Assembly: GCA_963965975.1 (NCBI GenBank) | Contig: OZ014415.1 | Location: 4,717,001-4,781,000, forward strand | DNA from: Xestospongia bergquistia | Taxonomy: Eukaryota > Porifera > Demospongiae > Haplosclerida > Petrosiidae | Reading direction: 5' to 3' | Length of the DNA: 64,000 bases | Shown: positions 1,816 to 28,191 of the stretch, piece by piece | Layout: the number at the start of each line of letters is the position of its first letter | Position numbering within the stretch: the stretch's first letter is position 1 | Notes under the pieces: model-generated | Told to the model about the DNA's origin: nothing | What the model saw: the letters and a program-made list of their open reading frames with translations, nothing else | Database searches by the model: none | Made by a program: the position numbers and the translations under genes

Positions 1816-2014
1816 GCTCCAACTGTATAATATCCTCCGGCAACAGCTGGTACAAAAATTACATCTGCTTTTGCTCTTCCAGTAATTGAAATGCCTCCTC
1901 TACGATCTCAACTGAAATACCAGGTATATCAGAACCCACCTAATAATAAAGAATATTTAATGATAATTATTGCTGTGTCACTCACAAATATCACAGTTTT
2001 AGCACCTTCATTTA
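1816..2014 (-). pseudogene. DUF2064/TIGR04282-like glycosyltransferase fragment, copy 1
   Basis: Read on the minus strand this is a spliced gene fragment. The first exon part, ending at 1,986, encodes EGAKTVIF. A 46-nt intron follows (1,985-1,940) with a GTGAGT donor and a TTATTATTAG acceptor. The next exon, from 1,939, encodes VGSDIPGISVEIVEEAFQLL and then, after a phase break near 1,867-1,872, KADVIFVPAVAGGYYTVGA. The pattern G-A-x-x-V-x-x-x-G-S-D-x-P ... D-V-x-x-x-P-A-x-x-G-G-Y-Y is the signature of the DUF2064/TIGR04282 family, a nucleotide-diphospho-sugar transferase-like fold. The rest of the gene is missing. An in-frame TAA lies at 1,861-1,859 if the first frame is kept. The fragment is embedded in satellite A, so it is a passenger and not a functional gene. 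The family assignment is from memory of the motif, without a database search. Confidence 0.72.
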
Positions 2015-2548
2015 GTAAAGCTCATTGAATTTAAAGTCAAGCTATACATACTAACACACTTCACTGTATTTACTTGCCCTTGGGCTATAGCAACGAACAT
2101 TATTGTCTTGGATTTACTGCAGAGAACACTGTCAAATGATTTGGCTGAATGGAATCTAGTTCCTTCTTCTGTTTTGCTAAACAGCCCTGTGGAAATAAAG
2201 TTGTGAATGATTCGTTGCTAAAACAAAGTAATGCTGTTTAAGATTTCTTGTACAAATATTTACAAGCTGATACTAATACCAAAGAAGACACGATGGGGGT
2301 AAAAATCTTTTAAAAACACTTGACTAATATTATTCAGACTTGCTACATTGTACTAAATATACTGGTTATTAAAGTGTATATATTACAGAGACAAGGATAG
2401 GTGACATATATGTTTTAAAATGACTTATTACAGGCTTAGTTAAGATAACAAATGCACTAAACTAAGGGCTAAAGCTCATTAAATTTAAAGTCAACCTATA
2501 TATACTAACACCCTTGACTGTATTTACTTGCCCTTGGGCTATAGCGAG

Positions 2549-2747
2549 GCTCCAACTGTATAATATCCTCCGGCAACAGCTGGTACAAGAATTACATCTG
2601 CTTTTGCTCTTCCAGTAATTGAAATGCCTCCTCTACAATCTCAACTGAAATACCAGGTATCTCAGAACCCACCTAATAATAAAGAATATTTAATGATAAT
2701 TATTGTTGTGTCACTCACAAATATCACAGTTTTAGCACCTTCATTTA
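2549..2747 (-). pseudogene. DUF2064/TIGR04282-like fragment, copy 2
   Basis: This is the second copy of the captured fragment, 733 bp downstream of the first. It has the same intron, the same phase break between LLEE and KADVI, and the same GGYYTVG motif. A few residues differ, for example GSEIPGIS replaces GSDIPGIS and VILVPA replaces VIFVPA. Sharing the phase break means the fragment was already broken before the 733-bp duplication. Confidence 0.72.
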
Positions 2748-4209
2748 GTAAAGCTCATTGAATTTAAAGTCAAGCTATACATACTAACACACTTCACTGT
2801 ATTTACTTGCCCTTGGGCTATAGCGAGTAACATTATTGGTTTGGATTTACTGCAGAGAACACTGCCAAGTGATTTGGCTGAATGGAATCTGGTTCCTTCT
2901 TCTATTTTGCTTAACAGCCCTGTGAAATAAAGTCATGAATCTTTGGCTGCTAAAACGAAGTAACGATGAACTAAACTAAGGGCTAAAGCTCCTTGAATTT
3001 AAAGTCAAGCTATATATACTAACACACTTCACTGTATTTACTTGCCCTTAGGCTATAGCGAGGAACATTATTGTCTTGGATTTACTGCAGAGAACACTGT
3101 CAAATGATTTGGCTAAATGGAATCTGGTTTCTTCTTCTATCTTGCTAAACAGCCCTGTAGAAATGAAGTCATGAATCTTTGGTTGCTAAAACGAAGTAAC
3201 GATGCACTAACACACTTGACTGTATTTACTTGCCCTTGGGCTATAGCGAGGAACATTATTGTCTTGGATTTACTACAGAGAACACTGTCAAATGATTTGG
3301 CTGAATAGAATCTGGTTCCTTCTTCAATCTTGCTAAAAGCCCTGTAGAAATAAAGTCATGAATCTTTGGTTGCTAAAACAAAGTAATGCTGTCTAAGATT
3401 TCTAGTACAAACCTTTACAAGCTGATACTGATACAAAAGCAGACACAATGGGGGTAAAAAGCCTTTTAAAAACACTTGACTAATATTATTCAGACTTGCT
3501 ACATTGTACTAAATATACTGGTTATCAAAGTGTATATATTACACAGACAAGGAAAGGTGAGATATATATTTTAAAATGACTTATTACAGGCTTAGTTAGA
3601 GATAACAAATGCACTAAAACTAAGGGCTAAAGCTCATTGAATTTAAAGTCAAGCTAGATATACTAACACAAACGAAGTATTGATACTCTGACTGTATTTA
3701 TTGGCCCATGGGCTGTAGCAAGAAAAATTAGTGTCTTGGATTTACTGCAGAGAACACTGTCAAATGACTTCCCTGCATGGAATACAGTTCCTTCTTCAGT
3801 CTTGCTCCACAGCCCTGCAGAAGTAAAGTCCTGACACATTGATTGCTAAAATGAAATAAACCAATGCAGTCTAAGATTTCTAGTAGAAACCATTACAAGC
3901 TGATACTGATACATAAGTAGACACAATAAGTTTAAAGTCAAGCTAGATATACTAACACACATGAAGTATTGACACTTGACTGTATTTATTTATTTACCCT
4001 TGGGCTGTACCGAGGAACATCATTGTCTCGGATTTACTGTCAAATGACTTCCCTGCATGGAATACAGTTCCTTCTTCTAAAAAGCCCTGCAGAATAATCG
4101 TTGCTTGCTAAAAGGAAGTAATGCTGTCTAAGATTTCTAGTACAAACTATTACAAGTTCATACTGATACAAAAATAAAGACAATGGGGGTAAAAAGGCTT
4201 GTACAAAAT

Positions 4210-4352
4210 TAGCCTTGTAGCCAAGCTTTCGCAATAGAAAAGAGCCTGGTAACTACTGTTTGCGTGTCAATGTGATGTCAATAATTACGCGAAAGCACAA
4301 GCAGTAATGACCAGGGTTTCTTTTCTATCGCAAAAGTCTGGGTACGAGGCTA
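4210..4352. mobile_element. MITE with long imperfect terminal inverted repeats, copy 1
   Basis: A 143-bp non-satellite insert starts TAGCCTTGTAGCCAAGCTTT and ends CTGGGTACGAGGCTA. The first and last roughly 50 bases are imperfect inverted repeats: AGCCTTGTAGCCAAGC against the reverse complement AGCCTCGTACCCAGAC, followed by the shared GATAGAAAAGA/AATAGAAAAGA and CCTGGT..TACTG blocks. It has no coding capacity. The match in length to the 143-bp satellite monomer is a coincidence, because the sequences are unrelated. The right flank has lost the target duplication that is visible in copy 2. Confidence 0.75.
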
Positions 4353-7300
4353 AATAAATAAAAACACTTGTCCAATTTTATTTACCCTTAGGCTGTAGTG
4401 AGGAACATCATTGTCTCGGATTTACTGCAGAGAACACTGTCAAATGATTTGGTTGAATGAAATCCAGTTCCTTCTTCTGTCTTGCTAAATAAAGTCATGA
4501 TTCATTGCTTGCTAAAAGGAAGTAATGCTGTCTAGCGCAAACTAATACAAGTTGATACTACAAAAGCACTAAACTAAGGGCTAAAGCTCATTGAATTTTT
4601 AAGTCAAGGTAGATAAGGCTAAAGCTCATTGAATTTAAAGTCAAGGTAGATAGGGCTAAAGCTCATTGCTGATACTGATACAAAAGTAGACACAATAGTT
4701 TAAACTCAAGCTAGGTATACTAACGCACATGAAGTATTGACACTTGACTGTATTTATTTACCCTTGGGCTGTACCGAGGAACATTATTGTCTCGGATTTA
4801 TTGCAGAGAACACTGTCAAATGATTTGGCTGAATTAAATCCAGTTCCTTCTTCTGTCTTGCTAAATAAAGTCATGATTCATTGCTTGCTAAAAGGAAGTA
4901 ATGCTGTCTAGCACAAACTATTACAAGCTGATACTACAAAAGCACTAAACTAAGGGCTAAAGCTCATTGAATTTAAAGTCAAGGTAGATAAGACTAAAGC
5001 TCATTGAATTTAAAGTCAAGGTAGATAGGGCTAAAGCTCATTGAATTTAAAGTCAAGGTAGATAGGGCTAAAGCTCATTGAATTTAAAGTGAAGGTAAAT
5101 ATACTAATGCACATGAAGTATTGACACTATTTATTTGCCTTTGGGTTGTAGCGAGGAACATTATTGTCTCGGATTTACTGCAGAGAACACTGTCAAATGA
5201 TTTTGCTGAATGGAATCCAGTTCCTTCTTCTGTCTTGTTAAACAGCCCTGCAGAAATTAAGTCGTGATTCATTGGTTGCTAAAATGAAGTAATGCTGTGT
5301 AAGATTTCTAGTACAGACCATTACAAGCTGATACTACAAATGCACTAAAACTAAGGGCTAAAGCTCATTCAATTTAAAGTCAAGGTGGATATACTAACGC
5401 ACATGAAGTAATGACATTCTGATTGTATTTATTTGCCTTAGGGCTGTAGAGAGGAACGTTATTTACTGCAGAACACTGTTAAATGACTTGGCCAAATGGA
5501 ATCCAGTTCTTTCTTCTGTCTTGCTCCACAGCCCTGTAGATGTAAAGTCCTAACACATTAGTTGCTAAAATGAAGTAATGCATTTCTAATGATTTGTAGT
5601 ACAACCATTACAAACACATGATATAGGACAATACTCAAGACTCAAAAAAATCTCCACAATATGCACATTTTATAATACATAGTGCATAGATAACTTACGG
5701 GACAGGAAGTCTACACATCATAATCATATTCATAAGTATACACAATACAACAACCAACCAATAATACAGCACAAGCTGATACCAACACAAATGTAGAGAC
5801 AGTGAGGGTAAATAGCCCTGCAGAAATAAAGTTGTGACAAACCATTACAAGCTGATACTGATACAAAAGTAGAAACAATAGGTTTAAATGGGCTTGTACT
5901 AAATAAAGGTAGACATGATGGGGCTAAATAGGCTTGTAGTGATAAAACATTTGACAAATATTATTCAGACTTCCTACATTGTACTAAATATATTGGTTAC
6001 TGAAGTTTATATATTAGAGAAAAGGAAGTCAGATATGTTTCCATATGACTTATTACAGGCTTAGTTTGCATAAAAGATGCACTAAAACTAAGGGCTAAAT
6101 CTGACTCAATTTCTTTTGTTCTAGCTAATAACATCATCGTCTAAGATTTATTGCAGACAAGACTGTCAAATCACTTGGCTGCATGGAATACAGTTCTTTC
6201 TTTTGTCTTGTTAAACAGCCCTGCAGAAATAAAGTCCTGACACATTCATTGCTAAAATGAAGTAATGCAGTCCATGATTTCTAGTACAAACCATTACAAG
6301 CTGATACTGATGCAAAAGTAGACACAATAGGTTTAAATGGGCTACATTGTACTAAATATACTGGAAAAGGACTAGTCAGATATGTTTCCAAATGACTTAT
6401 GACAGGCTTAGTTCAGATAACAGATGCGCTAAACCTAGGGGCTAAAGATCACTGAATATACTAACACACATGGAGTACTGCTACTCTGACCATATTTATT
6501 TGCCCTTGGGCAGTAGCAAGGAACTGCAAAAACGCTGTCAAATGACTTGGTTGAATGGAATCCAGTTCCTTCTTCCGTCTTGCTAAACAGCCCTGCAGAA
6601 GTAAAGTCCTGAAACGTTGGCTGCTAAAGTAGTAATGTTGCCTAAGATTTCTAGTACAAACCTTTTCAAGCTGATACTGATACCAAAGCACACACAATGG
6701 TGGTAAAAAGCCTTTTAAAAACACTTGACTAATATTATTCAGACTTACTATATTGTACTAAACATACTGGTTATTAAAGTGTATATATTATAGAGACAAG
6801 GAAAGGTGAGATATTATGTTTTATAATGACTTAATACAGGCTTTAACAAATGCACTAAACTAAGGGCTAAAGCTCATTAAGGTCAAGCTAGTCATACCAA
6901 CACACATGAAGTATTGATACTCTGACTGTATTTACTTGCCCATGAGCTGTAGCAAGGAACATTATTTACTGCAGAACACTGTCAACTGACTTGGCAGAAT
7001 GGAATCCAATTCCTTCTTCTGTCTTGCTAAACAGCCCTGCAGAAATAAAGTCGTCACTCATTGGTTGCTAACGAAGTAATGCTGTCTAAGATTTCTACTA
7101 CAAACCATTACAAGCTGATACTACAAATGCACTAAACTAAGGGCTAAAGCTCATTCAATTTGAAGTCAAGCTAGATATACTAACGCACATGAAGTATTGA
7201 CACTTGACTGAATTTATTTGCCCATGGGCTGTAGCAAGGAACATTAGTGTCTCGGATTTACTGCAGAGAACACTGACAAATGATTTGGCTGAATGGAATC

Positions 7301-7987
7301 CAGTTCATTCTTCTGTCTTGCTAAACAGCCCTGCAGAAATAAAGTCGTGACTCATTGTACTAAATATACTGGTTACTAAAGTCTATATATTAGAGAGGAA
7401 AGGAATAGTCAGATATGTTTCCAAATGACTTATGACAGGCTTAGTTTTAGTGCATCTGACTGAATTTCAAAGTCAAGCTACATAAACTAACACACATGGA
7501 CTACTGTTTACGTGAACGTATTTGTTACTACTGTCTTTCCCTTTTTTGTAGCGTTTACTTCAGAGAAGATTGCAAATGACTTGGGTGCATGGAATCCAGT
7601 TCCTTCTTCAGTCTTGACATTTGCTACTAAAGAAGTAATGCTGTCTAAGATTTCTAGTACAAACCTTTACAAGCTCATGGAATTTAATGTCAAGCTAGAT
7701 ATACTAACACAAATGAAGTGTTGATACTCTGACTCAATTTATTTGCCCATGGGCTGTAGTGAGGAACATTAGTGTCTCGGATTTACTGCAGGGAACACTG
7801 TCAAATGACTTAGGTGAATGGAATCCAGTTCATTCTTCTGTCTTGCTAAAAAGCCCTGCAGAATTAAAGTCGTGACTCATTGCTTGCTAAAAGGAAGTAA
7901 TGCTGTCTAAGATTTCTAGTACAAACTATTACATGCTCATACTGATACAAAAGTAAAGACAATGGGGTAAAATGGCTTGTACTAAAT

Positions 7988-8130
7988 TAGCCTTGTAGCC
8001 AAGCTTTCGCAATAGAAAAGAGCCTGGTAACTACTGTTTGCGTGTCATTGTGATGTCAATAATTACGCGAATGCGCAAGCAGTAATGACCAGGGTTTCTT
8101 TTCTATCGCAAAAGTCTGGGTACGAGGCTA
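7988..8130. mobile_element. MITE copy 2 with 9-bp target duplication
   Basis: This is a second copy of the element at 4,210, also 143 bp. It is flanked on both sides by GTACTAAAT (7,979-7,987 and 8,131-8,139), a 9-bp target-site duplication. Long terminal inverted repeats with a 9-bp duplication fit a non-autonomous Mutator-like (MULE) element. It sits at the same point of a satellite unit as copy 1, so the two probably come from one insertion that was later copied with the satellite. Confidence 0.75.
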
Positions 8131-8344
8131 GTACTAAATAAAAACAATCGTCCAATTTATTGAGACTTGCTACAAAATATACCGGTTACTAAATTTCAAG
8201 AAGACTTACGATAGGTTAGTTAAGATACAAATGCACTAAAACTAAGGGCTAAAGCTCACTGAATTTAAAAGTCATGTTAGATATACTACAGCACATGGAG
8301 TACTGCTTCTCTGACTGTATTTGTTACTACTGTCTTTCCTTTTT

Positions 8345-9960
8345 GTTGTAACGAGGAATTTCATTGTCTTGGAATTACTGCAGAGAACACTGTCAAATGA
8401 CTTTCCTGCATGGAATACAGTTCCTTCTTCTGTCTTGCTCCACAGCCCTGAAGAAGTAAAGTCCTGACACATTGATTGCTAAAATGAAATGAAGCAATGC
8501 AGTCTAAGATTTCTAGTACAAACCATTACAAGCTGATACTGATACAAAAGTAGAGTTTAAAGTCAAGCTAGATATACTAACGCACATGAAGTATTGACAC
8601 TTGACTGTATTTATTTACCCTTGGGCTGTAGCGAGCAATATTATTGTCTTGGATTTACTGCAGAGAACACTGTCAAATGACTTCCCTGTATGGAATACAG
8701 TTCCATCTTCTGTCTTGCTCCACTGCCCTGCAGAAGTAAAGTCCTGACACATTGATTGCTAAAATGAAATGAAGCAATGCAGTCTAAGGTTTCTAGTACA
8801 AACCATTACAAGCTGATACTGGTACAAAAGTAGACAGAATAAGTTTAAAGTCAAGCTAGATATAATAACGCAAATGAAGTATTGAGACTTGACTGTATTT
8901 ATTTACCCTTGTGCTGTAGCGAGGAACATTATTGTCTTGGATTTACTGCAGAGAACACTGTCAAATGACTTTCCTGCATGGAATACAGTTCCTTCTTCTG
9001 TCTTGCTCCACAGCCCTGCAGAAGTAAAGTCCTGACACATTGATTGCTAAAATGAAATGAAGCAATGCAGTCTAAGATTTCTAGTACAAACCATTACAAG
9101 CTGATACTGATACAAAAGTAGAGTTTAAAGTCAAGCTAGATATACTAACGCACATGAAGTATTGACACTTGACTGTATTTATTTACCCTTGGGCTGTAGC
9201 GAGGAATATTATTGTCTTGGATTTACTGCAGAGAACACTGTCAAATGACTTCCCTGTATGGAATACAGTTCCCTCTTCTGTCTTGCTCCACTGCCCTGCA
9301 GAAGTAAAGTCCTGACACATTGATTGCTAAAATGAAATGAAGCAATGCAGTCTAAGGTTTCTAGTACAAACCATTACAAGCTGATACTGGTACAAAAGTA
9401 GACAGAATAAGTTTAAAGTCAAGCTAGATATAATAACGCAAATGAAGTATTGAGACTTGACTGTATTTATTTACCCTTGTCCTGTAGCGAGGAACATTAT
9501 TGTCTTGGATTTACTGCAGAGAACACTGTCAAATGACTTTCCTGCATGGAATACAGTTCCTTCTTCTGTCTTGCTCCACAGCCCTGCAGAAGTAAAGTCA
9601 TGACACATTGATTGCTAAAATGAAATGAAGCAATGCAGTCTAAGATTTCTAGTACAAACCATTACAAGCTGATACTGATACAAAAGTAGAGTTTAAAGTC
9701 AAGCTAGATATACTAACGCACATGAAGTATTGAGACTTGACTGTATTTATTTATCCTTGGGCTGTAGCGAGGAATATTATTGTCTTGGATTTACTGCAGA
9801 GAACACTGTCAAATGACTTCCCGGTATGGAATACAGTTCCCTCTTCTGTCTTGCTCCACAGCCCTGCAGAAGTAAAGTCCTGACACATTGATTGCTAAAA
9901 TGAAATGAAGCAATGCAGTCTAAGGTTTCTAGTACAAACCATTACAAGCTGATACTGGTA
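8345..9960. repeat. 568-bp higher-order repeat in satellite A
   Basis: Two alternating subunits of about 284 bp repeat with a 568-bp period. TAGAGTTTAAAG occurs at 8,551, 9,119 and 9,687. One subunit has TTTCCTGCATGGAATACAG and the other CTTCCCTGTATGGAATACAG. Identity between periods is very high, so this is a recent expansion. Confidence 0.85.
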
Positions 9961-10344
9961 CAAAAGTACACACAATAGTTTAAAGTCAAGCTAGATATAC
10001 TAACAAACATGAAGTATTGACACTTGACTGTATTTATTTACCCTTGGGCTGTAGTGAGGAACATTATTGTCTCGGATTTATTGCAGAGAACACTGTCAAA
10101 TGATTTGGCTGAATTAAATCCAGTTCCTTCTTCTGTCTTGCTAAATAAAGTCATGATTCATTGCTTGCTAAAACGAAGTAATGCTGTCTAGCACAAACTA
10201 TTACAAGCTGATACTACAAAAGCACTAAACTAAGGGCTAAAGCTCATTGAATTTTTAAGTCAAGGTAGATAAGGCTAAAGCTCATTGAATTGAAAGTCAA
10301 GGTAGATAGGGCTAAAGCTCATTATTGATACTGATACAAAAGTA

Positions 10345-13300
10345 GACACAATACTTTAAACTCAAGCTAGAGATACTAACGCACATGAAGTATTGACACT
10401 TGACTGTATTTATTTACCCTTGGTCTGTACCAAGGAACATTATTGTCTCAGATTTACTGCAGAGAACACTGTCGAATGATTTGGCTGAATGAAATCCAGT
10501 TCCTTCTTCTGTCTTGCTAAATAAAGTCATGATTCATTGCTTGCTAAAAGGAAGTAATGCTGTCTAGCACAAACTATTACAAGCTGATACTACAAAAGCA
10601 CTAAACTAAGGGCTAAAGCTCATTGAATTTAAAGTCAAGGTAGACAAGACTAAAGCTCATTGAATTTTAAGTCAAGGTAGATAGGGATAAAGCTCATTGA
10701 ATTTAAAGTCAAGGTAGAGAGGGATAAAGCTCATTGAATTTAAAGTCAAGGTAGATAGGGCTAAAGCTCATTGAATTTAAAGTGAAGGTAGATATACTAA
10801 TGCACATGAAGTATTGACACTATTTATTTGCCTTAGGGCTGTAGTGAGGAACGTTATTTACTGCAGAACACTGTTAAATGACTTGGCAAAACGGAATTCA
10901 GTTCCTTCTTCTTTCTTGCTAAATGGCCCTGCAGAAGTAATGTCCTAAGTTTTCTAGTATAAACCATTACAAAGTCATACTCATACAAAAGTAAACACTA
11001 TGGGGGTAAAAAGGCTTGTACTAAATAAAAACGCTCGACTAATTTTATTGAGACTCGCTATATATATTTTACAAAATATACCAGTTACTGAAGTCTTTAT
11101 ATTACGGACTAGTGAGATATTATATTTCAAAAAGACTTACGATAAGCTTAGTTAAGATAACAAAACACTAAAACTAAGGGTTAAAGCTCACTGAATTTAA
11201 AAGTCATATACTACAGTACATGGAGTACTGCTTCTCTGACCGTGTTTGTTACTACTGTCTTTCCCTTTCTTGTAGCGAGGAATTGCCTTCATGGAATACA
11301 GTTCCTTCTTCTGTCTTGCTCCACAGCCCTGTAGAAGTGAAGTCCTAACACATTAGTTGCTAAAATGAAGTAATGCATTTCTAATGATTTGTAGTACAAC
11401 CATTACAAACACATTCACGTATGATATAGGACAATACTCAAGACTCAAAAAACTCTCCACAATATGCACATTTTATAATACATAGTGCATAGATAACTTA
11501 CGGGACAGGAAGTCTACACATGATAATCATATTCATAAGTATACACAATACAACAACCAACCAATAATAATGCAGCACAAGCTGATACTGACACAAACGT
11601 AGAGACAGTGAGGGTAAATAGCGCTGCAAAAAAAATTGTGACAAACCATTACAAGCTGATACTGATACAAAAGTAGACACAATAGATTTAAATGGGCTAC
11701 ATTGTACTAAATATACTGGAAAAGGACTAGTCAGATATGTTTCCAAAAGACTTACGACAGGCTTAGTTCAGATAACAGATACGCTAAACCTAGGGGCTAA
11801 AGATCACTGAATATACTAACACACATGGAACTGCATGGAATACAGTTCCTTCTTATGTCTTGTTAAACAGCCCTGCAGAAATAAAGTCCTGACACATTGA
11901 TTGCTAAAATGAAGTAATGCAGTCCATGATTTCTAGTACAAACCATTACAAGCTGATACTGGTACAAAAGTAGACACAATAGTTTAAACTCAAGCTAGAT
12001 ATACTAACGCACATGAAGTATTGACACTTGACTGTATTTATTTACCCTTGGGCTGTACCAAGGAACATTATTGTCTCGGATTTACTGCAGAGAACACTGT
12101 CAAATGATTTGGCTGAATGAAATCCAGTTCCTTCTTCTGTCTTGCTAAATAAAGTCATGATTCATTGCTTGCTAAAAGGAAGTAATGCTGTCTAGCACAA
12201 ACTATTACAAGCTGATACTACAAAAGCACTAAACTAAGGGCTAAAGCTCATTGAATTTAAAGTCAAGGTAGACAAGACTAAAGCTCATTGAATTTTAAGT
12301 CAAGGTAGATAGGGATAAAGCTCATTGAATTTAAAGTCAAGGTAGAGAGGGATAAAGCTCATTGAATTTAAAGTCAAGGTAGATAGGGCTAAAGCTCATT
12401 GAATTTAAAGTGAAGGTAGATATACTAATGCACATGAAGTATTGACACTATTTATTTGCCTTAGGGCTGTAGCGAGGAACATTATTTACTGCAGAACACT
12501 GTTAAATGACTTGGCAAAACGGAATTCAGTTCCTTCTTCTTTCTTGCTAAATGGCCCTGCAGAAGTAATGTCCTAAGTTTTCTAGTATAAACCATTACAA
12601 AGTCATACTCATACAAAAGTAAACACTATGGGGGTAAAAAGGCTTGTACTAAATAAAAACGCTCGACTAATTTTATTGAGACTCGCTATATATATTGTAC
12701 AAAATATACCAGTTACTGAAGTCTTTATATTACGGACTAGTGAGATATTATATTTCAAAAAGACTTACGATAAGCTTAGTTAAGATAACAAAACACTAAA
12801 ACTAAGGGCTAAAGCTCACTGAATTTAAAAGTCATATACTACAGCACATGGAGTACTGCTTCTCTGACCGTGTTTGTTACTACTGTCTTTCCCTTTCTTG
12901 TAGCGAGGAATTGCCTTCATGGAATACAGTTCCTTCTTCTGTCTTGCTCCACAGCCCTGTAGAAGTGAAGTCCTAACACATTAGTTGCTAAAATGAAGTA
13001 ATGCATTTCTAATGATTTGTAGTACAACCATTACAAACACATTCACGTATGATATAGGACAATACTCAAGACTCAAAAAACTCTCCACAATATGCACATT
13101 TCATAATACATAGTGCATAGATAACTTACGGGACAGGAAGTCTACACATGATAATCATATTCATAAGTATACACAATACAACAACCAACCAATAATAATG
13201 CAGCACAAGCTGATACTGACACAAACGTAGAGACAGTGAGGGTAAATAGCGCTGCAAAAAAAATTGTGACAAACCATTACAAGCTGATACTGATACAAAA

Positions 13301-13590
13301 GTAGACACAATAGATTTAAATGGGCTACATTGTACTAAATATACTGGAAAAGGACTAGTCAGATATGTTTCCAAAAGACTTACGACAGGCTTAGTTCAGA
13401 TAACAGATGCGCTAAACCTAGGGGCTAAAGATCACTGAATATACTAACACACATGGAACTGCATGGAATACAGTTCCTTCTTATGTCTTGTTAAACAGCC
13501 CTGCAGAAATAAAGTCCTGACACATTGATTGCTAAAATGAAGTAATGCAGTCCATGATTTCTAGTACAAACCATTACAAGCTGATACTGA
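10345..13590. repeat. 1,628-bp tandem duplication in satellite A
   Basis: Positions of about 10,345-11,972 are repeated at about 11,973-13,590, offset 1,628 bp, with near identity. The minus-strand open frame at 11,498-11,746 reappears unchanged at 13,126-13,374. The duplicated block also contains five or six short 40-bp steps of AAAGCTCATTGAATTTAAAG with AAGGTAGATAGGG. Confidence 0.88.
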
Positions 13591-14398
13591 TACCACAGCA
13601 GACACAATGGTGGTAAAAAGCCTGTAAAAACACGTGACTTGCTACATTATACTAAATATACTGGTTACCAAAGTGTATATATTATATAGACAAGGACAGG
13701 TAAGATATTATGTTTTAAAATGACTTATTACAGGCTTAGTTAAGGTAATAAATGCACTAAAACTAAGAGCTAAATCTCACTGAATTAAAAGTCAAGCTAG
13801 ATATACTAACATACATGAGTACTGCTACTCTGACCATATTTGTTACTACTGTCTTTCCCTTTTGTTGCAGTGAGGAACATCATTATCAAACAAGCTGATA
13901 CTGATACAAAAGTAGACGCAATGGGGGTAAATAGGCTTGTAGTAAATAAAACACGTGACTAATATTATTCAGACTTGCTACATTGTGCTAAATATACTGA
14001 TTACTAAAGTGTATATATTACAGAGAAAAGACTAGTGAGATATTTTTGACTTATCACAGGGTTAGTTCAGATAACAGATGCACTAAAAGTACTGAATTTA
14101 AAACTTAAGTTGGGCAAGCTAGATATACACACACACGTGGAGTACTGCTACTCTGACCGTATTTGACTACTGTCTTTCCCTTTTGTTGTAGCGAGGAACA
14201 TCACTGTCAAATGACTTGTCTGTATGGAATCCAGTTCCTTCTTCTGTCTTGCTAAGCAGCCCTGCAGAAGTAAAGTCGAGACACACGGTTGCTAAAATGA
14301 AGGAATGGCATCTAAATTTATTAATTTCTAGTACAAATTTGGTGCCAGTAGTCTTGCTAAACAGCCCTGCAGAAGTAAAATGCTGACACACTGTAGAA

Positions 14399-16336: not shown

Positions 16337-16818
16337 CAGGCATGGGGTCAAATACATTGAATAGTATTTAAATACAAATACAAATACTCTCAAAACATGA
16401 AATACAATATACAAATACAAATACTTCTAGCAGGAATGTATTTCAAATACAAATACAAATACTTTGAAAAGTATTTAAATGCTTTCCAAATACTTCTTTA
16501 TACTATCCCAGCAGGAAAATCCCCATTATTTGCTTTACATATAATGAACTAATCATTACAAATTATTGATAATCTCTTCAAATGTTTTGTCAGTTAGGCA
16601 ACATTGATCAGGGCAGGAAAAACTTTTCCTACTATGCTGAATAGTCTTTCCACAGAAACAAACAATTTAAAAAGGAGTATTTAAAGATTTCATGAAGTAT
16701 TTCAAATACAAATACAAATACTTCCTGTTTCAAAATTTCAAAATACAAATACAAATACTCAAAAAAAGTATTTAAATACAGCTAAATACAAATACTCATA
16801 TATTTGACCCCAAGCCTG
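16337..16818. mobile_element. Non-autonomous hAT element with 8-bp target duplication
   Basis: The 482-bp element begins CAGGCATGGGGTCAAATA and ends TATTTGACCCCAAGCCTG. These are terminal inverted repeats of 18 bp with one mismatch. It is flanked by ATGTATAG on both sides (16,329-16,336 and 16,819-16,826), the 8-bp duplication typical of hAT. Both subterminal regions are packed with AAATACAAATAC-type repeats and AGTATTTAAATAC palindromes. A decayed hAT C-terminus lies in the middle. The element cannot encode a complete transposase. Confidence 0.9.
16549..16656 (-). pseudogene. hAT transposase C-terminal dimerisation remnant
   Basis: On the minus strand the translation reads SVERLFSIVGKVFPALIN, then a stop, then LTKHLKRLSIICND and a second stop. 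In the hAT dimerisation (hATC) region the conserved sequence is SVERLFS-x-x-G ... L.....E.L..+..N, so the match is clear although short. The rest of the transposase has been lost, leaving an internally deleted, non-autonomous element. Confidence 0.8.
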
Positions 16819-16826
16819 ATGTATAG

Positions 16827-20212: not shown

Positions 20213-20843
20213 CTTGGCTGATTTTGTACTGTCCAGGAGTTTGTCCCTGCTCACCCACTCTATTGACATTCCTCAGGTACTAGAAAACCACGCCTTATTA
20301 AATATTTGTGGTTTCAAGTGTTTTGATAGGGTGGAGCTGCAGTTGCTGTATACGGAAAACTTACAACAACATTGTATATAGGGTGGAGTTGCAGATACGG
20401 AAAACTTACAACATTGTGTGTAGACAGAACATTCTTTCGATTTAGCTAATATATTATAAATGATAGCTAATTAAATCCTTTCTAAACAGTTTGTTTACTA
20501 ATTTTTTTAAAAATCACTTTTCATATTTTCTTTAAAAAAATTTTTTTAGCATAACCTTGTTAGTATAAACAATAATCAAGAAACTAGCACTGCAGTTACT
20601 GGTCTCCAGGAACGTTTGTCCTTAATTTCTTACACTAGATTGTTTTGCATACAAATTTAAAAAACATTAGGCTATTATAAACATTTACATGAATTTTATT
20701 ACCGAGTTTAAAATAGTGACAAGCTTCACATTCTTATTTGCAAATATAAAATCATAATGACTTGCAATATACAAGGTGACAACATCATTCAATGTGACTT
20801 CTTAATATACATCATTACAATGGTTCACAAAAAATGGACTCAA
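20213..20843. other. Spacer with a short tandem duplication at 20,329-20,422
   Basis: GGGTGGAG(C/T)TGCAG ... ACGGAAAACTTACAAC occurs twice in tandem, from 20,329 and 20,381, with units of about 52 and 42 bp. An exon carrying the catalytic Cys box of the downstream USP gene should lie somewhere upstream of 21,203. I could not find it here. Confidence 0.5.
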
Positions 20844-21139
20844 TAGCCAGCAATAAGGGGAAATGTACTAAAATGAACAAATGGCCTTGTTGCTGGGTGG
20901 GAAAGACACACCCATATCAAAACAACTGACAATAGTATTTGTACTAACCTGACACACTTGAATATCATATCGTCGTTCACATTCAAAGTCTCAAAAGCCA
21001 GCAATAAGAGGAAATGTACTAAAAAATGAACAAATGGCCTTATTGCTGGGTGGGAAAGACACACCCATATCAAAACAACTGACAATAGTATTTGTACTAA
21101 CCTGACACACTTGAATATCATATCGTCGTTCACATTCAT
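20844..21139. repeat. 152-bp tandem duplication covering a minus-strand exon end
   Basis: AGCCAGCAATAAG...CGTTCACATTCA is present at 20,844-20,986 and again at 20,996-21,139 with very high identity. On the minus strand the unit carries GAATGTGAACGACGATATG ... GTGTGTCAG followed by GTTAGTAC, which resembles an exon end with a splice donor. The upstream part, outside the duplication, encodes SKAQLQCYECERRYDIQVCQ with a CxxC pair. The exon end would therefore be duplicated. I do not recognise the protein. Confidence 0.6.
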
Positions 21140-21202
21140 AGCACTGGAGTTGTGCTTTAGACCTAACAAGGCTTTTGAAAATCAAACCAGCAACCTATGT
21201 AG

Positions 21203-22450
21203 GATAAACTGTGTCCTCCAGTTATTGCATGTAACACCCCTGGCAAAACATCTGTGTGGAAATTAGAAACCCCAAACTTTGTTGAAGCATTGATGAATTA
21301 TTTTAATAGGTATACCACAAGCAGAATTAACACCAGTACAGAAAGAATACTTAAACATTGAGTGTGCAGTAGAAGATAACGTTGTTAATTCACAGATGAT
21401 AACAGTACTCATTTATTTCTAGGCAATATGATATAATATATGTAATTTAATAGACATTGATGACATCAACACACATAGATTTTGGTGGCCAGAATGATGT
21501 AATAGAAGGAATAGAATTACTTGATGATCCCTTACTGTTCAATCAATGGAGGTAATAGAGATTTAAGAAATATACAACTGTAATCAAGTAAGATGTTTGT
21601 CTAATTAACAGAAACTGTTTAATATGTATACAATCACTGAGAAACAATGTCCTATATGCAAGGAGGTCTGTTATAGTGTGTGTCGTTTATATTAACAATT
21701 AGATAGATGTTGGAGAAGAGTACACAAAAATACTACTAATTTCAGTAGTGGACATAAAGAAGACCGCATATCAGAATTGTGGTGGAAGAAAATATCTTGT
21801 TAATCAGATGAATCATCCCATCATTTGTAAGCTGTTTATTGTGGACAATAATGTCATAATAAAGCCTACAATGCATACCTTGCAATGAACGTCTAATGAC
21901 TGTTAGCACAAAAGTTGCTTCATTACCTGATGTACAGATAATAGGCATTTCTCGAAACACACATTCAAGTAAAAAATCAAACAAGCCATTGTTGCTACAA
22001 GAGTAAGATGCAGGCAATGTAATCCATCTGATATTATATCTGATAGGTCAATTACAATTGAAAGTACTACCAGACATGATTACACCTCAAGAACGTACAG
22101 ATTACTTGGAATAGCTGTTAGTACTGATGACAATGAAAGTATCCTTTTAATCTTGCTTCCATTTAGGTTCATCATGGACATCCATCCAACATCTGTAGAT
22201 ACAGGTCACTGTAAGTTATTATACAGCTATAAGATACCTACATTAAAACAAACACAATAGACACTGCATTAGTGAAAACACCAGGTGGAGAATGGATTGA
22301 ATATGATGACAATAATGTAAATACTAACTACGATTACAACAGAAATATAGATTACATTTCAGTGAGTAAAGATAATGAAAACAATGCATCATTATGATTA
22401 CCTCTTAGAGAAATGTATGTCTAGCTATATACAAGTCTGATGAGTCTGAG
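21203..22450 (+). pseudogene. USP (peptidase C19) half of a USP-Ulp1 fusion gene
   Basis: Short exons separated by introns of about 40-50 nt encode the blocks of a ubiquitin-specific protease in order. INCVLQLLHVTPLAKHL (21,204 on) follows the Cys box, whose catalytic Cys would be in an earlier exon I did not find. Next come GGQNDVIEGIELLDDPLL (21,454-21,551, like Q-x-D-A-x-E-F) and EKQCPICKE, the first knuckle of the zinc finger (21,612-21,665). They are followed by DVGEEYTKILLISV (21,703 on), PDVQIIGISRN (21,907-22,002), YRLLGIA and VHHGHPS (22,047-22,210), and then DTGHYTALVKTPGGEWIEYDD (22,192-22,316), the catalytic His box. The domain ends with RNVCLAIYKSDESE (22,409-22,450). From 22,261 on the splice phases agree and lead into the Ulp1 exons. 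Upstream, at least four junctions or exons are one base out of phase, one of them between HHGHPS and DTGHY. This suggests decay or assembly indels. USPs remove ubiquitin from proteins. Confidence 0.8.
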
Positions 22451-22611
22451 GTTAGCATGCAATTATTGTATATCACATAATACATATTGTAATTCATTTT
22501 GCTAACGATAGACTGTATTAAAAGTGATTGATTGTCCACCAATTTTAACATGGAGCGAAGTCAGTCTGTTGTTAAAATGTGCATACTTTACTGTTCTAAT
22601 ATTTCTATCAG

Positions 22612-22786
22612 AGTCCACTTGTTGTTGTTAATGAAGACAAGGAAATAGTAAGTGCATTGCTAGCAAAGAATTTATTCTATATATTTGAATAAAGGACTGG
22701 AAAGAGATTAAGGCACCATACAATACTTTACAGCCAGGAGTGTGGCTAACTGCAAAAGCAAACAGTGTATATATTATGTATAAATA

Positions 22787-22862
<76 letters not shown>

Positions 22863-23614
22863 CAGTATATATAATAGTATATACTTGTGTAGGTGATAAT
22901 GAATTACTTAATATTGTTAGCAAAAGATGTAAGTCAAATCATTTTACATGCACGTCACAGAAATTGTTAAAACAAGAGAAACATAGCCATTGTCAACTCC
23001 ACATTCCTTCCATTATTAAGAGCAAGAGGCTTTAGTGGTGTTATAAAATATGTAAGGCTTTTACAATTTTAACAAAGTATGAAAAGTAATAAATTATAGG
23101 GCAAAAATCTGTTAGAGAAAGACATGATCATATTTCCTATTCATTGTCCACAACATTGGATTCTCATCGTCAGTGCCTTAATCAACACAATATATGTTTG
23201 GGATACATTACATAGGTTGTTGATGTAAATGATAAGGTCATATATGAAGTTGATTCATATCATAATAGTCGGCCTCATTTAATAAATAGCATATGGTAAG
23301 AAATTATTACATAAGATAACATTTAAAAAAAACATAGGCTATATTTGTGTACATTGTCAAAGTTTAAACTATCCGTTAGTAAGTGGAGATACTATCATTC
23401 CAAAGTACATTACACATCCGCAAATGTACTTTTATGGTACTTATATACACACAGATGTGCAACAGTGGACACATGCCATGACATCTACAGAAATGTATAT
23501 ATATGTAAGGTATGTGAAAAGCATAGCTAAGATTTAACATTTACATTAGTCAATTAAACTTAACAGTATGTGGCAAGTTATCTCAGATTATCATATGATG
23601 AGGATGATTTTGAG
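22612..23614 (+). CDS. Ulp1/SENP-like (peptidase C48) half of the USP-Ulp1 fusion gene
   Basis: Consecutive exons join with matching phase: SPLVVVNEDKEI (22,612-22,647), DWKEIKAPYNTLQPGVWL.. (22,695-22,766), VIMNYLILLAKD (22,893-22,928), RNIAIVNSTFLPLLRARGF.. (22,977-23,051), GKNLLEKDMIIFPIHCPQHW.. (23,100-23,168), VVDVNDKVIYEVDSYHNSRP.. (23,216-23,295) and WLYLCTLSKF..SKWRYYHSK (23,338-23,404). These are the PGxWL, NSxF, PIHxxxHW and xVDSx motifs of Ulp1 de-SUMOylases. The catalytic His is in QHW and the Asp lies 17 residues later, the same spacing as in yeast Ulp1. The catalytic Cys motif (Q..N..DCG) is not clear. TGC at 23,474-23,476 (VDTCHDIY) is the best candidate, but the following Gly is absent and splicing around it is uncertain. 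YVASYLRLSYDEDDFE (23,567-23,614) probably follows it. The intron at 22,767-22,892 carries a long TA repeat. Confidence 0.82.
22784..22860. repeat. (TA)n microsatellite inside an intron
   Basis: A nearly pure TA run of about 75 bp with a single C interruption lies within the intron between the PGVWL exon and the VIMNYL exon of the USP-Ulp1 gene. Confidence 0.95.
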
Positions 23615-23754
23615 GTAGAGACTGTTTATTACATGTTGACATTATTTTTAAAAAATAGCTGACAACTTACAAGAAATGGATCCTTAAAATTAGGTATGCT
23701 GTTCATGAAATGAGTACACTCATTATACATTAATACATTGCCTGTTAATATCTA

Positions 23755-24300
23755 GCTGTTCAGTAGCAGAAGTGCATATGGAAAATGTTCCACCAGATTA
23801 TATAGAAACCATCAAAACTTATGTCAACTCAGGTACATAATAAATTACATAAATACTGAGTGATTATAATTTCAATCTTTGGTAACTTTAGGCTGGGATG
23901 GAGACAATGAAGTTAATTATATAATGGATCGTAAGCATACTGTTCTATAAATTCTATGTTGTGATTGATATTTAGTAGAAGATTTAGAGGACAATGACAT
24001 ACTACTTCCATCATTTACATCTGAACCAGTAATAGATAAGGATGATATATTTTGTACTGAACAAAAATGGGGCAAGGAATTTTACCTTAAAAGTTATCCA
24101 AACTTCAGACGTGACAAATCAGATCAGTATGTTTTTCATATATGTGAATACTATAGATAATATTCTATCATTGTATCAGTGACTGCATATTTACAAGAGG
24201 GTTCATTAGAACAACAATCAAAGCAAATGAAGTGTGTTTACAAATATCATATAAAATTCATGTTTTTATGATACAAAATAGCACACAATCAGACAACTAT
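23755..24300 (+). CDS. C-terminal region of the USP-Ulp1 gene, before the piggyBac insertion
   Basis: Exons continue in phase after the protease domain: VAEVHMENVPPDYIETIKTY (to about 23,831), GWDGDNEVNYIMD (23,893-23,931), LEDLEDNDILLPSFTSEPVI.. ending FYLKSYPNFRRDKSDH (about 23,977-24,127), DCIFTRGFIRTTIKANE (about 24,180-24,232) and HTIRQLL (24,282-24,300). The last exon is cut by piggyBac at a TTAA. The region is acidic (a run of Asp/Glu near 23,980) and resembles no domain I know. It is probably a family-specific tail. Confidence 0.7.
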
Positions 24301-24494
24301 TAACCCTTTGACGCACGCGGATGCAAAATTGCATCCACCCGGGCGGTTCGAACTCGGGCGCGGATGCAAATTTGCATCCACCACTATGAACACGTCTCAA
24401 GCAACTTATTCTTTTGTAAAACGCGAACTAAACTTGTCAAAGCATCATTACTGTATTCTATCTAACTGGCCATTGCTCAATCTAACAGAAGAAA

Positions 24495-25858
24495 CGAGCG
24501 CTTACCCCCTCATCCTGAGTTTTTTAACGAGTACATGGATGGTATTCCTAGCGAGGATTAGGATGATGATTTGATGGCTACGTGGACAATCCTTTAATCC
24601 TCAATGATGGAGAGGCAGCAGAACTATTCCATTAGACATAATCCTGTACCAGATGATACTATTTTGTAAGCATTAGCCCCACCTAATTAAGATAATGAGC
24701 ATTCCATCAGCCACAATATTGCTGATACTGATGCAGGCAACACCAGCTCCCTCCATTCCATTCCATTCGTCTATCCCATGCACTCACTTCCTACTAAGCC
24801 TACACCTACTTTAGTTCAAAAGTTATCAGAAACTACACCTATCAGTGCTGTTACTCCTGAGCAACTACTTATAGGTCCTATCAATCCTTGTCATCAACAA
24901 CGAGACCAAACACCTCCTACTTGTAAACCTGATAGGTACTTATATAATACATGGTTTTTACACAGAAATGGTAAATAATAATAATCTTTTATAGTACAAG
25001 CATTTACTGCTGTACCAGGCATCACTGATAACATCATGTGCACACTATTGGCGTTTTTTCAATCAGTTCTTTACTTCTGAAGTGAAAGATCGCATTTATA
25101 CTGCGACAGTCTGATTTGATGAACAAGAGCTTGCATCATCTGAGGAATACCTGGATATGCATCGTCATGCATGTGGTAATGAGTGGAGAAGAAACCCTAT
25201 GGACAGAAGTGAAGTCAATCCTTTCTTGGCAATCATTATAACAATGGGTGTTATTGGTTATCCAACTTTGAGGTAATTATATAAAAAGGCTAATTTAATT
25301 GTATTCATCTCTGGTAATTAATTCATTGTCTGGTAATAATGTTCATTGTATTTTAATAATATTATAAATCATCACCAATGAATACTGTTATCAAAGAATA
25401 TAAATATGAAAGCTTTATTATAAAGTACAGCTTTATTAGCTAATTAAGCGACTATGAATTTTATTAGCTCTTTTCTAAAAAAAACTTTAGGCATTTGTAA
25501 TTAGAAATACATATAGTACAAATAATTAGATCTTACTGGAGTACGAAGTGGCCATTTTACAATGAGTCACTCACAGCAATTATGTCTGTTAGAAGATTCG
25601 AGTTATTAATGAAGTACTTTCATTTAAATGATTCAACCAAAATGCGAGAACGAGGTAGCACCAACTACGATAAGTTGTACAAGATTCATCCTCTACCTGA
25701 CCTTATCATTACAGCGTTTAAATGAGCCTACACACCAGAAAAAATATATCAGTGGACGAGAGTATTATAGGATTCATAGGGACGCTTAGTTGGATTCAAT
25801 ATATGGCAAAAAGGCCTACTAAGGGGGGGATCAAAGTCTGGGTAGCTGCACGATGTAA
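24495..25858 (+). pseudogene. piggyBac transposase (DDE_Tnp_1_7), N-terminal half, broken
   Basis: The acidic N-terminus appears as PHPEFFNEYMDGIPSED followed by a stop (near 24,560). A Pro/Thr-rich stretch follows at 24,778-24,978. The core starts near 25,060 with EVNPFLAIIITMGVIGYPTLR. After an apparent intron it continues YWSTKWPFYNESLTAIMSVR.. FELLMKYFHLND and YDKLYKIHPLPDLIITAFK. It ends with NISVDESIIGF, which carries the first catalytic Asp (25,755-25,757), and GGIKVWVAARC. In-frame stops lie at 25,112-25,114 and 25,723-25,725. The last two catalytic Asp residues and the Cys-rich C-terminal domain are absent. The enzyme cannot be active. Confidence 0.87.
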
Positions 25859-26066
25859 GATATGCAAAACATCTTTACATGTACATTAATGTTTTAAGAT
25901 TTAAATACTTAAATTATCTACAATCAACCCTTACTCAATATTCAGACTTCATTTATTTCTTCATGTACTATATACTTATATATATTACCTACTGATAATA
26001 AGAAACCACAAACACAGACACACACACAAAATTATCTACTGATAACAAGAAACCACAAACACACAC

Positions 26067-26560
26067 CTTACATTATACATACACTAGCAAACAATTGCCA
26101 CTCTTTGCCTGACTATATGTTGTATCTATATGTACATGCTTCTCTTCCTGGCTGTGTGTGCATGTTGTGTATGTACACACGCACACACACATACACTTAC
26201 ATTATACATACACTAGCAAACAGTTAGCCACACATTGCCTGACTGAATGTTGTGTGTATATGTAGATGCTTCTCTCTTGGCTGTGTGTATGTGCACACAC
26301 ACATACACTTACATTATACATATACTAGCAAACAGTTATAATATATTGCCACTCATTGCTTGACGGTATGTTATGTCTATATGTAGATGCTTCTCTTTTA
26401 GCTGTGTGTATATGCACACACACATACACTTACATTATACATACACTAGCAAACAGTTATAATATATTGCCACACTTTGCCTGACTGTATGTTGTGTCTA
26501 TACATACATGCTTCTCTTCCTGCCTGTGTCTTTGTGTGTGTACGTTAGTGGTGTGTCTTT
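26067..26560. repeat. Minisatellite inside piggyBac, 112-129-bp unit
   Basis: CTTACATTATACATACACTAGCAAACA starts units at 26,067, 26,196, 26,308 and 26,429, giving four copies. Each also holds a TTGCCTGACTGTATGTTGTG-like segment and a GATGCTTCTCT segment, and units are separated by CA-rich stretches. It occupies the place where the second half of the transposase would be expected. Confidence 0.85.
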
Positions 26561-27145
26561 ATAGAAGATACTATACTCACCTAGTTATAAATCATCCAAA
26601 AGGAAGATTAGAAGACTCATTTTAAGGTTATAATACTATAAGTGAAGAAACAGCAGGTAGAATACTACAAGAAACAAATACTTACTTCAGTCAATTGCTT
26701 TCTTCCCCAATTGAAAGCTCCACCCAAATAAATTGACAGGATGTGATTGTGTCATTATGAGATGTGTCCAAGAAAACCTTCGTTGTGCACTTAGTTTACA
26801 TCGTTTGGCTAAGAACAAAGTGTCAACAGACTCACCACACAACAAATAAATCAACTGTATGTTCATAAAAATGATCACTCGAGCTCTACTGCTTCAGAAC
26901 TGGCTTCGAAATGTAAGCGTTTTTTGTCGTAGTATACTACAGAGTTTAGCTTTCATTTTATGGTTTTTCTTGTTGTTAAGGTAACAACAACAGCCTACCT
27001 ACACCCTCACACTAGCTACTAACCTGAAAGCGTCGTCTTGTTGCTACAGTAAGCTTTTAAAGCGTTGCTATTGTTGAAAAACATTATTCAAAAAGTAGCC
27101 GCCCATGGGCGTGATTACAATTAATTTGCCCCGCCCGTCAAAGGG
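26561..27145. other. Right part of piggyBac, non-coding
   Basis: No transposase motif is seen. TTGTTGTTA (26,970-26,978) and TAACAACAA (26,982-26,990) form a perfect 9-bp inverted repeat with a 3-nt loop. A 63-codon minus-strand frame at 26,687-26,878 has no recognisable motif. Confidence 0.5.
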
Positions 27146-27149
27146 TTAA

Positions 27150-27548
27150 ATGGAGAATGTTATAGTGACTTTGTTAAAGTAAAGTATGTGGATGATGATT
27201 GGCCAATTGACCTTGATGATATGGTGAGAATATCAGTCTAACAAACAATTACTTCATACAGTTTCATGTAGGTAATGGAAATTAATTACTATTTACTTGC
27301 TTTGGCGAGTGATTGTCTAAAAAACCTGTTTTCTATTTAAATGATTTTATGAAATCAATTGTCTGGCCACAGGTAATTCCAGATAATAAGTCGTAACCTA
27401 TAACCTCATTGAATTATACTTACAGATTCTCACTTTGTCAATAACGGAGAAATTTCACTTTTCACATGAAAAGGCAGTTAAGTGCCTCGTACAAAGACAG
27501 CTTCCCTTATCCAAACACAAAGTTCTTGATTTTAAGTTATTAACTTGA
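27150..27548 (+). CDS. 3' exons of the USP-Ulp1 gene, after the piggyBac insertion
   Basis: The interrupted exon resumes with NGECYSDFVKVKYVDDDWPI.. and ends DLDDM at 27,223. A 48-nt intron follows (27,224-27,271). The next exon gives VMEINYYLLALASDCLKNLF and then a TAA at 27,338-27,340. If one base is shifted, NDFMKSIVWPQ continues to a donor near 27,371. A last exon (27,426-27,548) then encodes ILTLSITEKFHFSHEKAVKC.. and ends with TGA. The gene therefore ends either at 27,340 or at 27,548. The composition and the short introns match the upstream exons. Confidence 0.65.
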
Positions 27549-28191
27549 ACTCTATTGTAGTGATAGAAATGACATATTGCTGTATTTTAATATGAATCTG
27601 ATAGTCATATTGATCAAATTTGTACTGAAATGCTTTGAAAGAAAGTCAGAAATTTGAATATTAATTGGAAACCCTGAAGTTATATTGGACTTACAAACCA
27701 ATCTTAAGCCAATAAGAGTCTCATATCCTACAACAATTGCACTTGATGCACAATCAATAATGCTTTGAGCAGAGTATACTACACTAATGTTTGCTATTGC
27801 TGCCTAGGCATCAATACAAAAACACTGACCTTCAGAGATCTTTCAGTGCAGTCTCATATCCAAAATAATACAAATTTCCTTGTAGCATTGTCATGTGGTG
27901 ATGAGACATTAATTAGGCATTAATTAGGCTTCTGCAGCAGCACATACCGCGGTTTTAAGATCCACCTACAGGAATGTGCTGCTAACTTCAACAGAGTTGC
28001 TCACCCTCTCCCAAGTATTATACGAGACTATCTTCAATTTCCTTTAATAAGAACAATACAGTCAAGAATATTAAAACAACCACATGAGCTGAGTTCAACT
28101 ATAATAATTATTATAGTCTCGCGTTGCCAGCCCCTCCCTCTCAGAATTTTAATTTGTGGTTGGATCAGCCAAATACACTAGGCCAACAGTA
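27549..28191. other. Spacer, no gene recognised
   Basis: This is AT-rich sequence between the USP-Ulp1 gene and a retroelement fragment. It may contain the unrecognisable 5' part of that retroelement. Confidence 0.45.

Follow-up and report, generated by a model that had tools for sequence, protein, structure and literature searches.

Does a gene that joins a ubiquitin-specific protease (USP) to a SUMO-protease-like (Ulp1) domain belong to its host or to a transposon? The question is posed by a 64,000-nucleotide stretch of the genome of the sponge Xestospongia bergquistia (C5:4717001-4781000 of a 146.5-Mb genome in 21 contigs; "the window" means this whole stretch), where an earlier note, made from the letters alone, had read such a two-domain gene at 21203-27548 and proposed that it could be either a host gene or transposon-encoded. 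The second alternative stands, supported by inverted ends, a 9-bp duplication and many copies, all of which count against the first. The window copy is a dead, internally deleted transposon copy and not a host gene. With a probability of about 0.72, we consider the region to be such a copy of a cut-and-paste transposon of the Mutator-like element (MULE) type, resembling Rehavkus, whose fuller copies would encode a PHD finger, a DDE-like transposase, a USP and an Ulp1-like protease, probably as one protein, and whose proteases would favour expression or transposition.

Results

Ends, target duplications and copies

Comparison of copies places the borders of the element at 20257 (left) and 27997 (right). 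The inverted ends are 28 nt long, the left end of the second copy of c10_3.47 agreeing with the right end of the window copy but for one mismatch, and a 9-bp duplication flanks two of the three copies that hold both ends, the window copy (TGCTCACCC) and c2_11.87 (TGTTATTTC). Inverted repeats around related copies, which the earlier note had suggested looking for, are thus present, and the 9-bp duplications with them. The features of the window copy are as follows, in window positions.

20248-20256, unstranded: left copy of the 9-bp target-site duplication TGCTCACCC; the identical 9 bases stand at 27998-28006
20257-20273, + strand: left inverted end, 11 nt shorter here (ACTCTATTG + ACATTCCT); the full 28-nt left end is in the second copy of c10_3.47
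20839-21138, unstranded: minisatellite of 153-bp units, 2 in this copy against many in others (Tandem Repeats Finder; copy comparison)
21139-21142, unstranded: junction of missing segment A, which carries the PHD finger and the transposase-like region and reaches 4.3 kb in c2_11.57 (copy comparison)
21192-21254, + strand: USP Cys box NLCRINCVLQLLHVTPLAKHL (legible in 7 of 20 sequences, all 7 with the Cys)
21478-21522, + strand: USP QQD-type box DFGGQNDVIEGIELL (in-frame splicing in c1_19.57 and c2_11.57)
21633-21665, + strand: USP CxxC exon part ITEKQCPICKE (motif reading)
21875-21952, + strand: USP part IPCNERLMTVSTKVASLPDVQIIGIS (motif reading)
22057-22116, + strand: USP exon part ending YRLLGIA (splice positions)
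22167-22210, + strand: USP catalytic-His exon (VHHGHP...DTGH in fuller copies), its frame broken by a 4-nt insertion (copy comparison)
22261-22361, + strand: USP exon YTALVKTPGGEWIEYDD... with the catalytic Asp motif (Pfam; splice positions)
22409-22450, + strand: last USP exon RNVCLAIYKSDESE (splice positions)
22612-22647, + strand: linker exon SPLVVVNEDKEI (splice positions)
22695-22754, + strand: start of Ulp1 (DWKEIKAPYNTLQPGVWLTA), exon end not fixed (motif reading; splice positions)
23100-23216, + strand: Ulp1 His exon, PIHCPQHW...VWDTLH (PF02902 1.9e-4; 47 genome places)
23466-23467, unstranded: junction of missing segment B, about 1.34 kb long, which in other copies holds the Ulp1 Cys motif SPTQSNACDCGVFVCM (copy comparison)
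24300-27149, unstranded: piggyBac insertion with TTAA on both sides (DDE_Tnp_1_7 3.6e-9; empty sites)
27970-27997, - strand: right inverted end, 28 nt (copy comparison)
27998-28006, unstranded: right copy of the target-site duplication, matching 20248-20256

The Ulp1 exon has 47 matches in the genome, 25 of them at 100% (window included), and in 44 of the 47 copies a USP-His exon precedes it on the same strand by 547-893 nt; conversely, 8 of 52 USP-His places are without the Ulp1 exon. From 29 long flank matches, out of 48 listed, the right flank of the window copy is seen to accompany 27 or more of the 47 copies; many near-identical copies therefore arose with duplicated blocks. This common flank is what would be expected of a host dual-protease gene that happens to sit in duplicated, centromere-like blocks. 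We regard such a gene as very improbable, because it leaves aside the inverted ends, the 9-bp duplications, the transposase-like region within the same ends, and the dispersed copies with other flanks: none of 10 dispersed copies (L009-L028) matches the window beside the element past its ends. Among individual copies, c2_11.87 has a separate match to window 16337-16819, some 5 kb off, and c1_19.68 and c1_19.57 have a flank in common. On its ends, duplications and copy number, a host gene was rejected.

The window copy is broken

On one strand, USP motifs are followed by Ulp1 motifs, in the order that the earlier note had given. Hand-joined, the YRL and His-box exons of the window match the UCH profile PF00443 with 7.1e-4 (19.7 bits, under the Pfam cut-off of 23.9), and the Ulp1 His exon matches Peptidase_C48 (PF02902; Pfam cut-off 20.7) with 1.9e-4 (21.8 bits) alone and with 3.9e-5 (24.0 bits) when the preceding exon is added, both above the cut-off. 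Phase is kept at junctions 22210/22261, 22361/22409, 22450/22612 and 22647/22695, and the 161-nt intron at 22451-22611 links the two domains exactly as had been described. Among 20 sequences examined, each of the sites from 22210 to 22695 could be located in 16-18, of which 15-18 keep GT or AG. Further upstream lie boxes that the earlier note had missed: a USP Cys box at 21192, a QQD-type box at 21478 and CxxC at 21633.

Other parts of the earlier gene model have to be given up. Continuous phase had been claimed up to 23404; a +2 frame change separates the WDTLH of the Ulp1 His exon from VDVNDKVIYEVDSYHN. This change, at 23210-23225 and after the Ulp1 Asp motif, occurs in 17 of the 19 sequences where both motifs were scored, with no evident intron. 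The Asp motif itself had been read as EVDSYH; WDTLH, 17 residues past the His, is the better fit, judged against the His-Asp spacing of yeast Ulp1. Nor does one gene run to 27548, since 24300-27149 is an inserted piggyBac. The empty TTAA site was found at 5 of 8 loci, the window being one of the 8, and in 7 of 10 dispersed copies; in 12 of the 47 copies the spacing fits the presence of the insert. Finally, the gene at this locus is not intact: the copy is broken because a 4-nt insertion just before the USP catalytic His shifts the frame and the Ulp1 catalytic-Cys segment is absent. The transposase-like segment is also deleted from it.

Open stretches are seen 3' of Ulp1 at 23467-24303 and 27146-27918 (e.g. 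VEDLEDNDILLPSFTSEPVIDKDD), and the one tested gave no Pfam match.

Fuller copies: PHD finger and transposase-like region

Segment A, missing from the window copy, measures 4.3 kb in c2_11.57 and encodes a PHD finger (PF00628, 5.7e-8, Pfam), a motif also present in c2_11.87 and c10a. Its open frames contain YLDATGTV, VPKCIIID and C-x2-H patterns, all of which fall in c12_4.16 within a single open reading frame of 245 amino acids (aa). Under the usual pattern rule for DDE transposases, and from its context, the region is a putative DDE transposase of MULE type. The canonical MULE domain PF10551 gave no match in this DDE-like region, and HHalign of the region against two MULE transposases gave nothing (probability 0.2%). 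Transposase-like DNA occurs at 12 genome places, the query's own counted, of which 3 reach at least 94%, and the C1 relatives L033-L036, at 73-76%, have only about 0.8-0.9 kb of the region in common. A PF10551 match 4.6-4.9 kb 3' of c1_11.65 was considered as the transposase of the element and rejected; it is beyond the matching range of that copy, and no right end is found there.

Fuller copies: protease domains and splicing

Across the fuller copies the USP Cys, His and Asp boxes are all seen. The Cys box is legible in 7 of 20 sequences and its Cys is kept in all 7; the Ulp1 Cys motif, which the window lacks, is present in 12 of 20, and 10 of these 12 have an intact D-C-G. In c2_5.42 the spliced part matches PF00443 with 8.2e-8, and an Ulp1 string hand-joined from several copies matches PF02902 with 8.3e-9. 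A Peptidase_C48 profile search of the genome returned 14 matches; since only 1 of the 14 falls in a copy of this element, such a search misses split exons. Viral and prokaryotic collections yielded pattern matches and no relatives.

Junction-by-junction phase checks covered two stretches, from the acidic tail, located behind the transposase-like region, to the CxxC exon, and from the USP His part to the start of Ulp1. For the first stretch, 5 of 14 copies looked at retain the donor, and in 2 of these 5, c2_11.57 and c1_19.57, the acidic tail runs into USP in frame over four introns, through three USP landmarks (Cys box, QQD-type box, CxxC exon), for 148 aa without a stop. In the second, four of 20 sequences, namely c2_5.42, c1_11.65 and the c10_3.47 tandem pair, stay in frame over five introns and 113 aa; the remaining sequences have stops, shifts, deletions or unlocated sites.

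These joins bear on whether one protein or several are encoded. We think it probable, from the genomic reading, that all parts form one long spliced protein. The element might instead hold two genes side by side, one for the transposase and one for USP-Ulp1, or USP and Ulp1 might be encoded apart as well. The parts are known here from genomic sequence, the phase checks start at the acidic tail, and the parts can be separated, because the second family described below has the USP-Ulp1 pair and the transposase in the opposite order. Against this, the GT-AG joins are in frame both from acidic tail to USP (c1_19.57, c2_11.57) and from USP to Ulp1 (c2_5.42, c1_11.65 and the c10 pair), and no start or stop signal is required between the joined parts. 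We judge two genes to be unlikely.

A second family with USP and Ulp1

Had the two domains never occurred together in homologues, the gene proposed by the earlier note would have been refuted; instead, the USP-Ulp1 order recurs in another family of this genome. Searches for co-occurrence of USP and MULE matches, which scored 149 of 166 and 150 of 195 candidates, found USP 1.5-3.5 kb upstream of MULE matches on the same strand at three genome places. Within 5 kb these 3 compare with 0.24 expected (2 of 1000 shifts reach 3), and within 16 kb with 0.71 expected (33 of 1000 shifts).

At one locus, L038 (C12:2674501-2678900), one strand carries in order USP, Ulp1, a C2H2 finger (1.1e-4, under cut-off) and a MULE transposase (PF10551, 2.7e-7). 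Its hand-joined USP exons match the whole UCH profile with 1e-28; the Ulp1 string, with motifs WLNDNV, AHW and QQNSIDCGIF, reaches 0.0018, under cut-off, and the end of USP and the start of Ulp1 join in phase 0, by eye. By our own count, this family's Ulp1 exon occurs at 15 distinct places, with a USP match at most 4 kb upstream in 6 and a MULE match at most 5 kb downstream in 4, each against 0.02 expected at random places; both are found at 1 of the 15, L038 only. Over 363 codons, L038 and L039 differ by a synonymous rate of 0.060 and a non-synonymous rate of 0.028, figures to be read with the similar ratios given by shifted frames and one mis-framed linker exon. In this family the USP-Ulp1 pair lies upstream of a canonical MULE transposase, whereas in the first element it lies downstream.

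A further locus, L037 (C2:788001-791500), has a MULE transposase (PF10551, 2.8e-11) with a USP Cys box upstream; the USP His box and Ulp1 were not seen there.

The second family also bears on the possibility that the proteases are passengers, the transposon having taken up pieces of host USP and Ulp1/SENP genes, as Pack-MULEs do, without any function in transposition. MULE-type elements do acquire host gene fragments, according to PMC6446971, variants among the copies look neutral, and the majority of copies are broken. Passive capture is nevertheless doubtful, given the same USP-Ulp1 order in a second MULE family, where USP stands upstream at 6 of 15 Ulp1-exon places against 0.02 expected, and given that most sequences in which these parts survive retain the active-site residues of both proteases. 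Because a second, canonical MULE family carries the pair too, USP-Ulp1 looks like a module carried by two MULE-type transposons.

Repeats around the element

Element copies with the right flank in common recur every 110-185 kb or so near the middle of contigs C5, C7, C11 and C15, as they would in a giant repeated block, perhaps a centromeric one. The right half of the window (31606-64000) is occupied by 227 units of a 143-bp satellite and shows a steady GC skew. For a 52-nt stretch of the satellite consensus, the genome contains 1800 exact matches in forward and 884 in reverse orientation. Positions 1-14300 are dense in degenerate tandem-like repeats, with units of about 190-290 bp and a 37-bp unit, and a 121-bp tandem repeat rich in CA/TG runs lies at 26227-26536, within the piggyBac insert.

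Discussion

Together, the ends, the duplications and the fuller copies point to a MULE-type, Rehavkus-like transposon that, on one strand, would encode a PHD finger, a DDE-like transposase region, a USP deubiquitinase and an Ulp1-like deSUMOylase. Its transposase would cut at the inverted ends and leave the observed 9-bp duplications, bringing the two proteases along. These could strip ubiquitin and SUMO from the transposase itself or, alternatively, from silencing and repair proteins met at the ends of the element. Such removal might favour expression or transposition, by protection from degradation or by relief of SUMO-linked silencing.

Several observations speak against this interpretation. 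The DDE-like region has no match in Pfam, PDB or HHalign, and 17 of 19 sequences have the +2 frame change within Ulp1. None of the copies retrieved is intact end to end, one USP donor in c2_11.57 reads GA, and the junction checks begin at the acidic tail. Furthermore, the variants among copies lack a codon-phase bias, no target duplication flanks c4_2.92, the third of the copies in which both ends are present, and the minisatellite of the element is near its left (5') end, whereas that of Rehavkus is placed before the 3' inverted end (PMC6446971).

A bolder proposal, to which we give somewhat less than even odds, is that USP-Ulp1 is a mobile two-protease cassette, present in two distinct MULE-type lineages of a single animal, after the transposase in one and ahead of it in the other, and that with it a transposon would take off both ubiquitin and SUMO and so counter degradation or silencing. 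The arrangement hints that certain animal transposons carry their own means of reversing ubiquitin and SUMO tagging in the cell.

Comparison with known systems

A report of a transposon with both USP and Ulp1 was not found in the literature searched, which left most subscription journals and, probably, Repbase Reports outside. The parts have precedents, cited here from partial texts. Rehavkus, a MULE-related group, is described with a 9-bp duplication, ends of 26-400 bp, a PHD finger and a minisatellite, in arthropods and annelids (PMC6446971). Our element has the same length of target duplication, 28-nt inverted ends within that range and, in its fuller copies, a PHD finger (PMC6446971); its minisatellite units of 153 bp compare with the 164-bp units in the inverted termini of the 9.5-kb Rehavkus-1_TC (PMC10218199). 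It differs in its USP and Ulp1 domains from Rehavkus-1_TC and Rehavkus-1_HR, as far as the accessible descriptions go, and in its host from those given for the group (PMC6446971). With three of the four printed features in common, and the minisatellite in another place, the element is Rehavkus-like and not a proven member. If the kinship is true, the hosts of the group extend past those named in the part available of PMC6446971.

Ulp1 is known from Ginger1 and Mutator elements, and OTU from Ginger1 and Helitrons (PMC2836005). The Mutator and MULE elements with Ulp1, those of hydra, lancelet, rice and melon and the plant KIU genes (PMC2836005, PMC13317346), carry this domain in a MULE-type element as here; unlike in those descriptions, as far as available, USP here precedes Ulp1. 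Plant KIU is a separate gene of its element, in an anti-silencing setting (PMC13317346). Ginger1 likewise has a transposase followed by a ubiquitin/SUMO-type cysteine protease, with PHD in one case, but its transposase is integrase-like, its ends are of another kind, and each element in the table has one protease domain, Ulp1 or OTU (PMC2836005). A Trichomonas protein joins Transposase_11 to peptidase C19 and so also places a C19 deubiquitinase beside a transposase; the transposase is of another superfamily, and Ulp1 is not mentioned in the portion available (PMC2836005). Ulp1 in MULEs and one C19-transposase protein were thus already in print, as was the suggestion, untested there, that ubiquitin and SUMO pathways act in transposition (PMC2836005). 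Both proteases beside one transposase, with a second MULE family carrying the same pair, make such a role testable.

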